Below are positions 37,156-42,203 of a stretch of 64,000 nucleotides of DNA, piece after piece. The stretch is from NCBI RefSeq assembly GCF_035918095.1, contig NZ_CP109137.1, positions 2,606,001 through 2,670,000 of the forward strand. Direction: 5' to 3'. The stretch comes from Streptomyces sp. NBC_01750 (GTDB lineage Bacteria; Actinomycetota; Actinomycetes; Streptomycetales; Streptomycetaceae). The stretch's first letter is position 1; every line of letters starts with the position of its first letter. The notes beneath the pieces are model-generated. The model did not search any database. It had not been told where the DNA came from and saw only the letters and a program-made list of their open reading frames with translations. Position numbers and translations under genes: made by a program.

Positions 37156-37484
37156 CTCGGTCGGCCGGGTCTCCGCGTGCGGCGCAGCCGGGGCAGCATC
37201 CCGGTTCAGGAGCGCGGAAGGCGCGGTCGCAGCGGTCGCAGTTCTGGAGCGGGTCGGGGCGGGGTGTGACCGCGACGGCGGGAAGCGGCGGGGGCAGCAT
37301 CGCCGTCAGTCGGTGGGCGACGAGGGCCGCCGGGTGGTGGATCGGGTCGGCGGGCAGCGCCGCGGTGAGGGTACGGCGCCGGGCTCGATGCCGCGTTCCA
37401 GCCAGGCGGACACGGCAGGGGCGAGGCGGCGGACGTCCCGCGCCAGAGCAGGAGCCGGGGGGCGTGGGCGCGCAGGCTGGGCAC
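37091..37484 (-). pseudogene. Frameshifted remnant with a CxxC-type C-terminus
   Basis: Downstream of the XRE regulator, a coherent protein can be read only by changing frame twice. A GTG at 37484, four bases after the regulator stop, starts PSLRAHAPRLLLWR; a second frame gives DVRRLAPAVSAWLERGIEPG; a third gives TLTAALPADPIHHPAALVAH and then NCDRCDRAFR with CCPGC. The breaks lie near 37441 and 37378. The final part resembles a Cys-rich metal-binding tail. The pieces join end to end without overlap, which argues for a real gene broken by indels, or for sequencing errors. The last part overlaps the VOC gene in antisense. The original function is unknown. Confidence 0.6.
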
Positions 37485-37487
37485 TGC

Positions 37488-38885
37488 TCAGGCGGCGACG
37501 CCGAGTTCGGAGCGGGTGCGGTGGACGAACTCGCAGACGGCTGGCTCGCGCCGCCAGGGCGCCAGGGCCGCGTTGAACTCGCGGACGTAGTCCTTGGCCC
37601 GGCTGGACTGAACGCGGGCGAGGATGTCGACGGAGCGGTTGCCGAGCTCGAGACCGTGGTCGAGGTCGCGGGCCTGCAGATGGGCGGTCCCAACGATCGC
37701 GAGCCGCATCCCGACAGAGCGGGTGAACACCCCGGTCGGCATCGCGACGGCCTGCTTGTTCCAGGCGAGGGCAGCCTTGGGGTTCTTCAGGTCGCGGAAG
37801 ACCTCGGCGGCGTCCGCCGAGAGGCGGGCGTGGTGATAGAAGTCGATCCATCCGGGCTCGTCGCCGCTGTCGGCCTTGGCCCGGACCAGCAGATCCTCGG
37901 AGGCCGCCAGGGCCCGGGAGGCGGCCCGGGGGTCGTTCTCGCGGGCGTGAGCGCGGGCCTCGATCAGCTTGGTGAACGCCAGCACCCTCGGCGCCGCCTG
38001 CCCCTTGGCGCGTTCGAAGGCTCCCTGGGCCATGTCCACGGCCTCGGAGGAGAAGCCCCGCATCAGGGACTGCATGGCCATCGTGGTCAGGACATAGCAG
38101 CCCAGCTGCACATCCCCGCCCGCGCGGGCCAGGCGGAGAGCCTGGATGAAGTGCCGCTGGGCGGCATCGTGCTGCCCGACGTCGAACGCCGTCCACCCGG
38201 CAAGCCGCGACAACTCGGCGGTCACGCTGAAGAGTTCACGGCCAACGTCGTCGGAGAAGGTGCCCTGCAGGAGCGGGGCCGCCCGGTGCTCAAGGCAATC
38301 GGTGACGGAGCTGGACTTCCAGTTCCCGCCGCCATACTTCGAGTCCCAGTGACGGGCGTGGTCGGCGGCCTCGCGCAGTTCGTCCAGGTCTGAGCGGCCG
38401 ACTTGCTGGCCGCCCCGGTGGTCGGCGGTCTCGTCGGCGGGGCTGACCAGCCAGCGGGTGACGGGGAGGGTGAACGCGGACACGGCGAAGCCGGACCCGG
38501 TCTCCTTGAGGAAGTCGCGGCGGTTCACGGAGCTCCAGAACGAAGTGGCGACGCGGACAGCGTCGGCGGGATCTCGCGAGAAATCCAACCCCACCGAAGC
38601 GTCGATTGTCTCCGCCTCGCCCATACCGATTTCCGCGAGATTGACGGGCCGCCCCAGCCGTTCCCCGATCGCCTGGGCCAGCAGCCGGGGCACCGGCGGC
38701 TTCGGGATCATCCCGCGCCGGCACCAGTTCGCCACGGACGTATGCGAGTAGTCGGTCTCTGTCCCGGCCTGGTGGGCGAGCTGGTTCACGCGCAGAGCCA
38801 GGGACTTGTGGCTTGCGCCAGAGGCTTCGATCAGCCGGGCCAGGTCCGTATTGGGCGGACGGGTCCGACGGACGCTCGATGCCAC
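37488..38885 (-). CDS. XRE-type regulator with C-terminal TPR-like domain
   Basis: A 465-residue actinobacterial regulator. The N-terminal 85 residues contain a helix-turn-helix-like segment (TDLARLIEASGASHKSLALR through YSHTSVANWCRRGMIP). A conserved NRRDFLKETG motif at about 135 is followed by a hydrophobic stretch. The rest is helical repeats of TPR type (RHFIQALRLARAGGDVQLG, MAQGAFERAKGQ, RALAASEDLLVRA). Proteins of this build often sit next to specialised-metabolite or morphogenesis genes. The start is a GTG at 38885 behind AAGGGGGAC; the open frame runs further upstream but without similarity. It is divergent from the amidotransferase chimera. Confidence 0.8.
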   Translation of the reverse strand: MASSVRRTRPPNTDLARLIEASGASHKSLALRVNQLAHQAGTETDYSHTSVANWCRRGMIPKPPVPRLLAQAIGERLGRPVNLAEIGMGEAETIDASVGLDFSRDPADAVRVATSFWSSVNRRDFLKETGSGFAVSAFTLPVTRWLVSPADETADHRGGQQVGRSDLDELREAADHARHWDSKYGGGNWKSSSVTDCLEHRAAPLLQGTFSDDVGRELFSVTAELSRLAGWTAFDVGQHDAAQRHFIQALRLARAGGDVQLGCYVLTTMAMQSLMRGFSSEAVDMAQGAFERAKGQAAPRVLAFTKLIEARAHARENDPRAASRALAASEDLLVRAKADSGDEPGWIDFYHHARLSADAAEVFRDLKNPKAALAWNKQAVAMPTGVFTRSVGMRLAIVGTAHLQARDLDHGLELGNRSVDILARVQSSRAKDYVREFNAALAPWRREPAVCEFVHRTRSELGVAA

Positions 38886-39223
38886 GACGTCCCCCTTGAC
38901 CAGTACTGGAGCGATGCGCACGAGGTCGTACTCGACTGGGCACAGAAAGTGGCACGCGGACGAGCTGAGGATTTTCAGTCGTACGCGAACCCCTCGCTGG
39001 GCACGAAGAGTCGTACACGCTACGTGTGTTGGGTCACCGAGGGTATTGCCTTCCGGGCTCCCAGTGAACCGCGCACGCGAGTTGTGAGCCCCCCTGCGAG
39101 CCCTCCCCGGTCCTGTCCCCGACCGCTGTGATGAAGGCCCAGGCCACCGCCGGAGCTGGACGAGGCTCCTTCCGGCGGTGGCCGCCGACAGGGCACCACC
39201 ACTCACTCTCGGGGGTGAACCAG
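38886..39223. other. Divergent intergenic region with a short dyad
   Basis: 338 bp between the XRE regulator and the amidotransferase chimera. ACACG-CTA-CGTGT at 39015-39027 is a perfect 5-bp inverted repeat that could bind the regulator. I see no gene or other structure. Confidence 0.4.
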
Positions 39224-40498
39224 ATGTGCGGAATCGCAGGACTGGCTGGACCGGACGCTCAGTGGCACCAGACGACGGTGAAGGCCATGGGCACCGCCCA
39301 GCACTACCGCGGACCGGACGGCACCACGCACGCCGCGTCCAGCGACGGGCGGGCGGTGCTGGCCATGAACACGCTGCTGATCGTCGACCCGCTCGCCCAT
39401 CCCGGCCCTTACCTCGACCGCACCACGGGAGTGCTGCTGGCCTTCAACGGCGAGATCTACAACTACCAGCAGCAGGCCGCCGCCTGGGGCATCGAACTCG
39501 GCGAGAAAGAGACCGACGCCCACCTGGTCCTCAAGGCATGGACGAAGCTCGGGCCGTCCTGCCTGGACGGGCTGGACGGCATGTTCGCCCTCGCGGTCTA
39601 CGACCCACGCGGCGGCAAGCTGTTCCTGACCCGCGACCGGCTCGGTGAGAAGCCGCTCTACTGGCGCCTGGACGGCGGCCGGCTCACGTTCGCCTCCGAG
39701 GTCACCACCCTGACCGGATACGGCCAGGCGCCACTGATCGTCCGCCCGGAGATGCTGGCGATCGAGACCCCCGTCGGCGTCGACACCCCGTTCCAGGGCA
39801 TCCAGCTGCTGGCCCCCGCCACCCTGCTGACCTTCGACGTCGTGACAGGCTCGCTCGACCAGCACACCTGGTGGCAGCTGGAGAACCGGCTGCCGTTCGC
39901 CGGCGAGGTCCTCGGGCACGACCCCCGGATCGGCCGGCGTGGCATGCGCCCCGGCCTCGGGTTCGGCGGCGGCTGCCTGCCCAAGGACATCCGCGGTTTC
40001 ATCGCCCAGGCCGTGGCCCTCGGCGCCGAAGCAGCCACCGGCATCCTCCGCGAAGCCGACGCGGTCAACACCCGCCGCCGCGAGGCCATGATTGACCTCG
40101 CCCGCGAACAGCTCGGCGGCGACCTCATGGGCAAGCGGATCACCGTCTGGGGCGCCGCCTTCAAACCCAACACCGACGACATCCGCGACTCGCCCGCCCT
40201 CGCCGTCGCCCAGAAACTCCACGAACTCGGCGCCACCGTCACCGTCACCGACCCCAAGGCCTTGGACAACGCCCGCAAACTCCATCCCGAACTCGACTAC
40301 GTCGAGGACCCGATCGCCGCCGTCCAGGACGCCGACCTGCTGCTGCACCTGACCGAATGGGCAGAGTTCGGTCACATCGACCCGCACCGCCTCGCCCACC
40401 GCCCGACTCAGCCCCTGGTCATCGACGGCCGCGGCGCCCTCAACCCCGACACCTGGCGCCAGGCCGGTTGGACCTACCGGGCCCTCGGCCGCCCCTGA
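39224..40498 (+). pseudogene. In-frame chimera: glutamine amidotransferase domain fused to C-terminal half of UDP-sugar dehydrogenase
   Basis: One uninterrupted 424-residue frame made of two unrelated halves. Residues 1-222 are a class II glutamine amidotransferase as in asparagine synthetase B: nucleophile Cys2 in MCGIAGL, RGPDG, AFNGEIYNY and LFLTRDRLGEKPLYW are intact, but the ATP-dependent synthetase domain is missing. From about residue 225 the sequence becomes the C-terminal two-thirds of a UDP-glucose/GDP-mannose dehydrogenase: GHDPRIGRRG, GLGFGGGCLPKDIRGF with the catalytic Cys at residue 251, GAAFKPNTDDIRDSPAL and RQAGWTYRALGRP. The NAD-binding N-terminal domain is missing. This looks like a deletion that fused asnB-like and ugd-like genes. 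Amidase activity of the first half may survive; dehydrogenase activity should not. Confidence 0.85.
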
Positions 40499-40742
40499 TC
40501 CCAAGGCCCACAACGCCGACAGCTGGGACATCAAACACAGCCAGCTCGTCATCGGCGACTACAACGGCGACGGACTCGACGACATCGGCGCCATGTACCA
40601 CCAGCCTGACGGCGCCGTGAAGATGTGGACCCGGACCGCGCGGGCAGAGGACGCCAAATTCAACGGGGCGCTGGCCAGTTGGTCCTACACGGCACCCCAG
40701 TGGGTCTACGCATCAACCCGTTTCTTCAAGCCTTACAACTAG
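40497..40742 (+). pseudogene. C-terminal fragment of an FG-GAP/VCBS repeat protein
   Basis: An open frame with no start of its own begins exactly at the chimera's stop and reads DPKAHNADSWDIKHSQLVIG, then DYNGDGLDDIGAMYHQPDGA, ending FFKPYN and a stop at 40740-40742. The DxNxDGxxD calcium-binding signature and the surrounding pattern are those of FG-GAP beta-propeller repeats in secreted actinobacterial proteins. All upstream parts are absent, so it is a remnant. Its fusion at the stop codon of the chimera marks a second recombination joint. Confidence 0.7.
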
Positions 40743-40755
40743 CGACACCCCACAC

Positions 40756-40787
40756 CGCTCCCGGCAGCCGGCCAGCTGCCGGGAGCG
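40756..40787 (+). terminator. Terminator hairpin
   Basis: CGCTCCCGGCAGC and GCTGCCGGGAGCG form a perfect 13-bp stem with a 6-nt loop, 13 nt after the FG-GAP stop codon. It was probably the terminator of the lost secreted-protein gene. Confidence 0.75.
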
Positions 40788-40883: not shown

Positions 40884-42203
40884 TCAGCCGAGCGGCATGT
40901 CCAGCACGGCCTTTCGGTGGCTGAAGGTCTCCAGGGAGTAGCGGCCGTGGTAGTTGCCCATGCCGCTCTCGCCGACACCTCCGAAGGGCAGATCGGACAC
41001 CGTGAGATGCGCCAGCGGGAGGCCGAACCCGACGCCGCCCGAGGAGGTCTCCGCCAGCAGCCGGTCGCGGGTCGTGGTTGATTCCGTGAACGCGTACAGC
41101 GCCAACGGCTTGTCCCGCTCGTTGATGAACGCGATGGCCTCGTCGAGGCCGGCGACCTCCACGATCGGCAGGATCGGGCCGAAGATCTCCTCGGACATGA
41201 CCGGGGAGTCCGGCGCCACTCCCGCCAGTACGGTCGGGGCGAAGTAGCGGATCGCGCGGTCGTGCTCGCCCCCGACGACCGGACGGCCCGAGCCGAGGAG
41301 GCCGGTCAGCCGGTCGAAGTGCCGTTCGTTGACGATCCGGCCGTATTCGGGCGAGGCGGCCGGATCGTCGCCGTACGCCTGCTGCACCGCCGTCTCCAGG
41401 GCGTCCTCGAGCTTGCTCGCGGTCACCGGGTCGGTGAGCACATAGTCCGGGGCTACGCAGGTCTGCCCCACGTTGAGGAACTTCGTGGCCACGAGCCGGG
41501 ACGCCACCGTCTGCAGGTCCGTTCCCTGGTCGACGAACGCGGGCGACTTCCCGCCGAGTTCCAGAGTCACCGGGGTGAGGTGCTCGGCGGCCGCGCGCAT
41601 CACGATGCGGCCCACGGTTCCGTTGCCGGTGTAGAAGATGTGGTCGAAGTGCTGCTCCAGCAGGGCGGTGGTCTCCGGGACGGCACCTTCCACCACGGCC
41701 AGCGCATCGGTGTCGACGAACTGCGGCAGCAGCTCGCCGAGGACCCGGGAGGTGGCCGGAGCCAGCTCGCTCGGCTTGGCGACGACGCAGTTGCCCGCGG
41801 CGAGCGCTCCGACCACCGGCGCGAGCAGCAGGTGCGCCGGATAGTTCCACGGCGCGATGACCAGTACGACACCCAACGGGTCACGCACCGTCCACGCGGT
41901 CGCCGTACGGAGACGTTCGGGAACCTCGGCGGGCTCGGGCCGCAGCCACTCCTCCAGGTGTTCCAGGGTGTTGTCGATCTCGCCCAAGGTGGAGCCGATC
42001 TCGGTACGGAACACCTCGCGCTCACTCTTGCCGAGGTCCGCACGGAGCGCGGCGACGAACTCCTGACTGCGCTCGGTCAGCATGGTCCGCAGGCCGGTCA
42101 GCTGCTCCCTGCGCCAGGAGAGCGGCCTGGTACGCCCGCTGCGGAAGGTGGCACGCAGCCGGGCGACGACATCGGCGGGCTGTTCAGCGTTTGAGTGCAC
42201 CAT
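40884..42203 (-). CDS. Aldehyde dehydrogenase family protein
   Basis: A 439-residue NAD(P)-dependent aldehyde dehydrogenase of the class-3-like group, shorter than the usual 480-500 residues and lacking the long N-terminal arm. Catalytic features are visible: PWNYPAHLLLAPVVGALAAG for cofactor binding, TLELGGKSP with the general-base Glu, NVGQTCVAPDYVL with the nucleophile Cys, and SEEIFGPILPIV. Such enzymes oxidise medium-chain or aromatic aldehydes to acids. The ATG at 42203 has GAGGAG upstream. It stands alone; its substrate is not indicated by neighbours. Confidence 0.93.
   Translation of the reverse strand: MVHSNAEQPADVVARLRATFRSGRTRPLSWRREQLTGLRTMLTERSQEFVAALRADLGKSEREVFRTEIGSTLGEIDNTLEHLEEWLRPEPAEVPERLRTATAWTVRDPLGVVLVIAPWNYPAHLLLAPVVGALAAGNCVVAKPSELAPATSRVLGELLPQFVDTDALAVVEGAVPETTALLEQHFDHIFYTGNGTVGRIVMRAAAEHLTPVTLELGGKSPAFVDQGTDLQTVASRLVATKFLNVGQTCVAPDYVLTDPVTASKLEDALETAVQQAYGDDPAASPEYGRIVNERHFDRLTGLLGSGRPVVGGEHDRAIRYFAPTVLAGVAPDSPVMSEEIFGPILPIVEVAGLDEAIAFINERDKPLALYAFTESTTTRDRLLAETSSGGVGFGLPLAHLTVSDLPFGGVGESGMGNYHGRYSLETFSHRKAVLDMPLG

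Follow-up and report, generated by a model that had tools for sequence, protein, structure and literature searches.

The asnB::ugd fusion frame of Streptomyces sp. NBC_01750 is, with a probability of roughly 90%, the deletion scar of a four-gene cassette. The frame lies at positions 39224-40498 (+) of the window, a 64,000-nucleotide stretch of contig NZ_CP109137.1, and joins the 5′ part of an AsnB-like amidotransferase gene (asnB) to the 3′ part of a UDP-sugar dehydrogenase gene (ugd). In the proposed parental cassette, an NsdA-family regulator faces asnB, a NUDIX hydrolase gene, and ugd, in that order. A single deletion of ~2.33 kb would have taken the asnB synthetase part, the NUDIX gene in full, and roughly the first 242 codons of ugd. 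The evidence lies in the parts of the fusion, its breakpoints, the parental gene order in relatives, and an assembly that has no other copy of the lost DNA. A preliminary description had proposed a deletion scar through a sugar or metabolite cluster, and this proposal is borne out by asnB-NUDIX-ugd cassettes in relatives on which the two ends of the window's gap fall at fixed points, the lack of a fusion match outside the strain's own genome in the results listed, and the absence of the missing DNA. It correctly placed the cuts in asnB and ugd and missed the NUDIX gene between them, which is wholly lost.

The fusion is a single open frame of 424 codons plus a stop. Read mechanically, the frame could begin as far upstream as a GTG (39128), but conservation places the start at ATG 39224, with Cys2 directly after it (MCGIAG). 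Residues 1-227 (39224-39906, +) are the glutaminase half of an AsnB-like protein, made up of a class II glutaminase domain with Cys2 and the stretch leading up to the synthetase domain. The remainder (39907-40498, +) is the C-terminal part of a UGD and comprises the end of the central domain with the GGGCLPKD motif, the UDP-binding domain, and the native stop. Pfam places GATase_6/GATase_7 within residues 40-163 (GATase_7, E = 3.9e-25) and the UDP-binding domain PF03720 at residues 308-408 (profile 2-103 of 103, E = 1.9e-27). Between them, at residues 228-283, lies an incomplete UGD central domain, which matches PF00984 at profile positions 40-93 of 94. The catalytic Cys of GGGCLPKD is retained at residue 251. 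A Pfam search of the fusion found neither the NAD-binding domain PF03721 nor the C-terminal, ATP-using synthetase domain PF00733. In the intact relatives, PF00733 occupies residues 254-570 of AsnB (P0001), and UGD (P0003) contains PF03721 at residues 2-179 and PF00984 from profile positions 2 to 93. The preliminary description had read the frame in the same way, as an open joining of a glutaminase domain with Cys2 to a UGD part that keeps Cys251 and lacks its NAD-binding domain.

The class II glutaminase domain is common to the fusion, the AsnB-type asparagine synthetases (PDB 1ct9), and AsnB-like amidotransferases such as MoeH5 of moenomycin biosynthesis; the intact relative also carries a synthetase domain, without which the fusion should not make an amide. 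The intact UGD relative matches UDP-glucose 6-dehydrogenases (best solved match PDB 4a7p) end to end, whereas the fusion keeps the GGGCLPKD Cys and the UDP-binding domain and has lost the opening stretch of the central domain along with the NAD-binding domain. With a UGD part that begins inside the central domain and an AsnB part that lacks the synthetase domain, the fused protein should carry out neither of the parental reactions, amide formation or dehydrogenation. Judged by its domain content, the protein would be no more than a residual glutaminase attached to a UDP-binding lobe. PADLOC returned no match for the fusion, AsnB, UGD, or the regulator, and a single match for the NUDIX protein (PDC-S07, 29.5 bits).

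In relatives, the stretches that match the two halves belong to separate genes, lie ~2.3 kb apart, and keep a conserved order, with the NsdA-family regulator facing asnB, NUDIX, and ugd. The NUDIX gene lies between asnB and ugd in most of the census rows that hold both. Four plasmid records annotate the regulator as "sporulation protein" (three) or "hypothetical protein" (one), and the genes divergent from it as asparagine synthetase B or asparagine synthase-related protein, NUDIX domain-containing protein, and UDP-glucose/GDP-mannose dehydrogenase family protein. The cassette is found on Streptomyces linear plasmids and chromosomes, including NZ_CP108096, NZ_CP107787, and NZ_CP034539. The nearest named relative among the matches listed is Streptomyces sp. 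ISL-1 (locus L044), which matches the AsnB half at 93% identity. The Streptomyces copies resemble the window in gene order, and the halves that the window retains are 91-93% identical to L044 and less so to others; unlike these copies, the window has neither the NUDIX gene nor the adjoining parts of asnB (3′) and ugd (5′). The full-length AsnB of L044 (8001-9764), a locus scored as full in the census below, has Arg in place of its catalytic Cys2 and, by its sequence, presumably lacks glutaminase activity.

The regulator of the cassette is still present in the window. It is encoded divergently from the fusion at 37491-38921 (-), is intact, and is 95.6% identical over 477 amino acids to the L044 regulator in the equivalent place. 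The preliminary description had called this gene XRE; it is instead an NsdA-family regulator that belongs to the cassette, with NCBIfam NsdA_fam_reg (NF053720) matching window positions 37488-39017 (E = 8.4e-129). The divergent intergenic region upstream of the native asnB start (38922-39223) is retained as well, inside one continuous DNA alignment of 37479-39906 with L044 at 93.5% identity.

The deletion joint maps to 39901-39906, within the interval of 39890-39910 that had been proposed for it. The two alignment arms overlap at this place: with L044, L037, and L164 alike, the left arm stops at 39906 and the right arm starts at 39901. The alignment coordinates give 2,334 bp of missing DNA relative to L044, 2,340 bp relative to L037, and 2,332 bp relative to L164. 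The lost stretch encodes AsnB residues ~228-588, all 145 residues of the NUDIX protein, and UGD from residue 1 to ~242. The asnB part is 92.5% identical to residues 1-228 of the 588 residues of L044 AsnB, and the ugd part is 91.4% identical to L044 UGD residues 243-439. The joint is not a chance resemblance, since the fusion halves are 88-93% identical at the protein level to two adjacent but separate genes of the closest relatives and the DNA is similarly identical (~89-93%) on either side. In each of the three proxies, both parental ends agree with the window at bases 39904-39906, so the sequence common to the two ends is about 3 bp, and perhaps slightly more in the true parent. Ends with so little in common suggest that the scar probably arose by illegitimate joining and not by recombination between long repeats. 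Such joining would fall in frame by chance about one time in three.

The lost DNA appears to be gone and not moved, because it is absent from the rest of the assembly. A search of the window's own genome with the 2,332-bp L164 version found only a 66% identical ugd (3.586 Mb) and a 36-bp match, and the NUDIX protein gave three weak matches (E = 4.4e-5 or worse). At two other places the same genome has an asnB-like and a ugd-like gene, 33-42% identical to the fusion halves, within ~5 kb of each other (G000:C1 1295625-1300828) and within ~12 kb (G000:C1 4696158-4707728; L003-L006).

Two observations speak against the scar: the fusion has neither stop nor frameshift, and neutrality over the whole branch is rejected. 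The principal alternative is a maintained new protein, an ammonia-releasing glutaminase beside a UDP-binding lobe that is kept by selection. Such a protein would have begun as a chance in-frame chimera and might serve, for example, to supply ammonia under regulation or to sense UDP-sugars in partnership with the NsdA-family regulator; this origin is improbable. The open frame, the retained Cys2 and GGGCLPKD, and the retained native start region favor the alternative as a whole, as does a window-branch ratio of 0.24. The preliminary description had raised a neofunctionalised protein as its second choice, which is compatible with this ratio, is not needed for the explanation, and is unlikely. 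Against it stand a UGD part that begins at position 40 of the 94-position central-domain profile, an occurrence known from one genome only in the results listed, a selection signal that may wholly predate the deletion, and frequent breakage of the cassette elsewhere.

The genome samples for the fusion search comprised one genome per species. Beyond the strain itself, no match spanned residues 1-424, whether among the matches listed in rank order for 199 genomes (this strain's counted), in the 23 of 392 genomes (again counting it) that reached 1e-80, or among the best 80 of the 586 loci listed from a species-level collection. None of the 19 plasmid records covered 80% of the fusion in one place. 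The wide conservation that would have spoken for an established family does not appear in the results listed. A few weak UGD alignments continue past the joint into AsnB sequence, at G145 (residues 177-424) and at L062 and L088 (residues 163-424), and one AsnB alignment extends to residue 238 (G381). All four are taken here as loose ends, and the UGD alignments probably come from ordinary UGD proteins.

Selection was assessed by parsimony against three relatives. The AsnB half has 8 synonymous and 7 non-synonymous window-private substitutions and the UGD half has 11 and 6; these counts are low because sites at which the other three sequences disagree were scored as unchanged. Pooled over both halves, the branch ratio of 0.24 rejects neutrality for the whole branch (P = 6.3e-5). 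If the background is taken as 0.22, neutral evolution could account for ~30% of the branch (P = 0.051). The intact regulator has a branch ratio of 0.23, and the relatives range from 0.19 to 0.49. In a mixed alignment (A1) of the fusion with separate halves, the N halves aligned in part to the C half, and it was left out of the comparison. Over both halves the window-branch ratio is like that of relatives, compatible with genes that worked until a young deletion or with a maintained protein. The substitutions carry no sign of relaxed selection, which fits a recent deletion, and a maintained protein would look alike. A young deletion would explain the rejected neutrality, and the deletion that left the scar is judged to be recent.

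Damage to the cassette is common in the loci compared, and the deletion in the window is one more case. All four genes are full in 20 of 44 locus rows and not full in 24, the window among them; loci entered the set through their similarity to the fusion halves, so they are not a random sample. Two pairs are identical (L181/L192 over 12,926 bases and L185/L194 over 7,748) and L042 and L043 are contigs of one genome, so the 44 rows represent 41 distinct cases, with all four genes full in 20 and not in 21, window included. The census counted only tblastn matches of at least 55% identity to L044 proteins, and each row required an asnB match or a ugd match of at least 68%. Duplicate loci (L045, L046, and L151) and loci of at most 8,000 bases (89 of 194) were left out beforehand. 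Of the plasmid records, 13 of 19 were taken in (H1-H6, H8-H12, H14, and H16) and H13, H15, and H17-H19 were left out; H7 equals L041 in record length and place.

The damage takes several forms. The ugd gene carries a stop or frameshift or is in pieces in L038, L126, L181, L192, L185, L194, and L186, and is reduced to fragments in L178 and L193. The regulator gene is split over two frames in L042, L050, and L126, and only its end is left in L185 and L194. The asnB gene is missing from L174, L052, L177, and L179, truncated in L175 and L186, and contains an inverted inner segment in L183. NUDIX is missing or reduced to its end in L048 and L047, and a contig end cuts the L043 row. L051, L053, and L176 probably represent different architectures and not decay. 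L052, L177, and L179 consist of the NsdA-family regulator and ugd only, without asnB and NUDIX, and would represent either a shorter form of the cassette or the clean removal of its two middle genes. In L183 (6185-7952), on a S. cyaneofuscatus plasmid, the inversion spans asnB residues ~284-341 and the gene is annotated as two proteins.

An assembly artefact, in which the real genome would have an intact cassette that was wrongly joined, is very improbable. The assembly consists of 3 contigs with a completeness rating of 100%, the contig that contains the joint is 8.89 Mb long, the ends at the joint share only a few bases and form no repeat that would mislead an assembler, and the missing 2.3 kb is not found anywhere in the assembly. 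An ancient fused family as the source of the separate genes has nothing in its favor and is scarcely credible, given that relatives among the genomes sampled show separate genes, mostly with the NUDIX gene between them, and that each half is highly identical to its separate gene.

The far side of the fusion is marked by a second joint. About 16 bases past the ugd stop begins the 3′ remnant of an FG-GAP-repeat gene (40514-40787, +), with 82% DNA identity to the end of a gene in NZ_CP107895 that is annotated as an FG-GAP-like repeat-containing protein and lies close to one end of a Streptomyces linear plasmid. The remnant's frame of 80 residues matched no Pfam family. An empty-site comparison for the island with flank relatives L161-L163, chosen from a search that scored only one or two candidates per genome, matched only the neighboring aldehyde dehydrogenase (~40884-42200) and not the other flank, and so did not reveal the site as it was before insertion.

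The function of the intact cassette can be proposed from its enzyme classes. UGD-type enzymes convert UDP-sugars to UDP-uronic acids, and AsnB-like amidotransferases are able to amidate carboxylates. One such enzyme is the AsnB-like MoeH5, whose substrate is a uronic acid unit. The intact UGD scores 395.6, above the curated cut-off of 189.8 for nucleotide sugar dehydrogenases, and the intact AsnB scores 243.4, under the curated cut-off of 267.1 for asparagine synthase (TIGR01536). In the predicted pathway, UGD would oxidise a UDP-sugar to a uronic acid, the AsnB-like enzyme would then amidate the carboxylate to a uronamide, and the NUDIX enzyme may cleave a nucleotide-linked intermediate. The simplest proposal for the cassette product is a UDP-uronamide or a derivative of it. 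A paper on moenomycin biosynthesis attributes to the amidotransferase MoeH5 much of the variety at a carboxyl group, with carboxamide among the forms (PMC8778134). Among the papers listed in literature searches for the cassette and for uronamides and amidotransferases, none concerned this cassette, by titles and the beginnings of abstracts, and a search for deletion chimeras found nothing.

The scar itself is ordinary and of little importance, although it is a clean example of how a deletion across three genes can pass for a designed fusion. It directs attention to a small conserved cassette of a regulator, an AsnB-like amidotransferase, a NUDIX hydrolase, and a UDP-sugar dehydrogenase. The intact cassette, often damaged and with a testable predicted product in the form of a nucleotide-linked uronamide, is a better lead than the scar.
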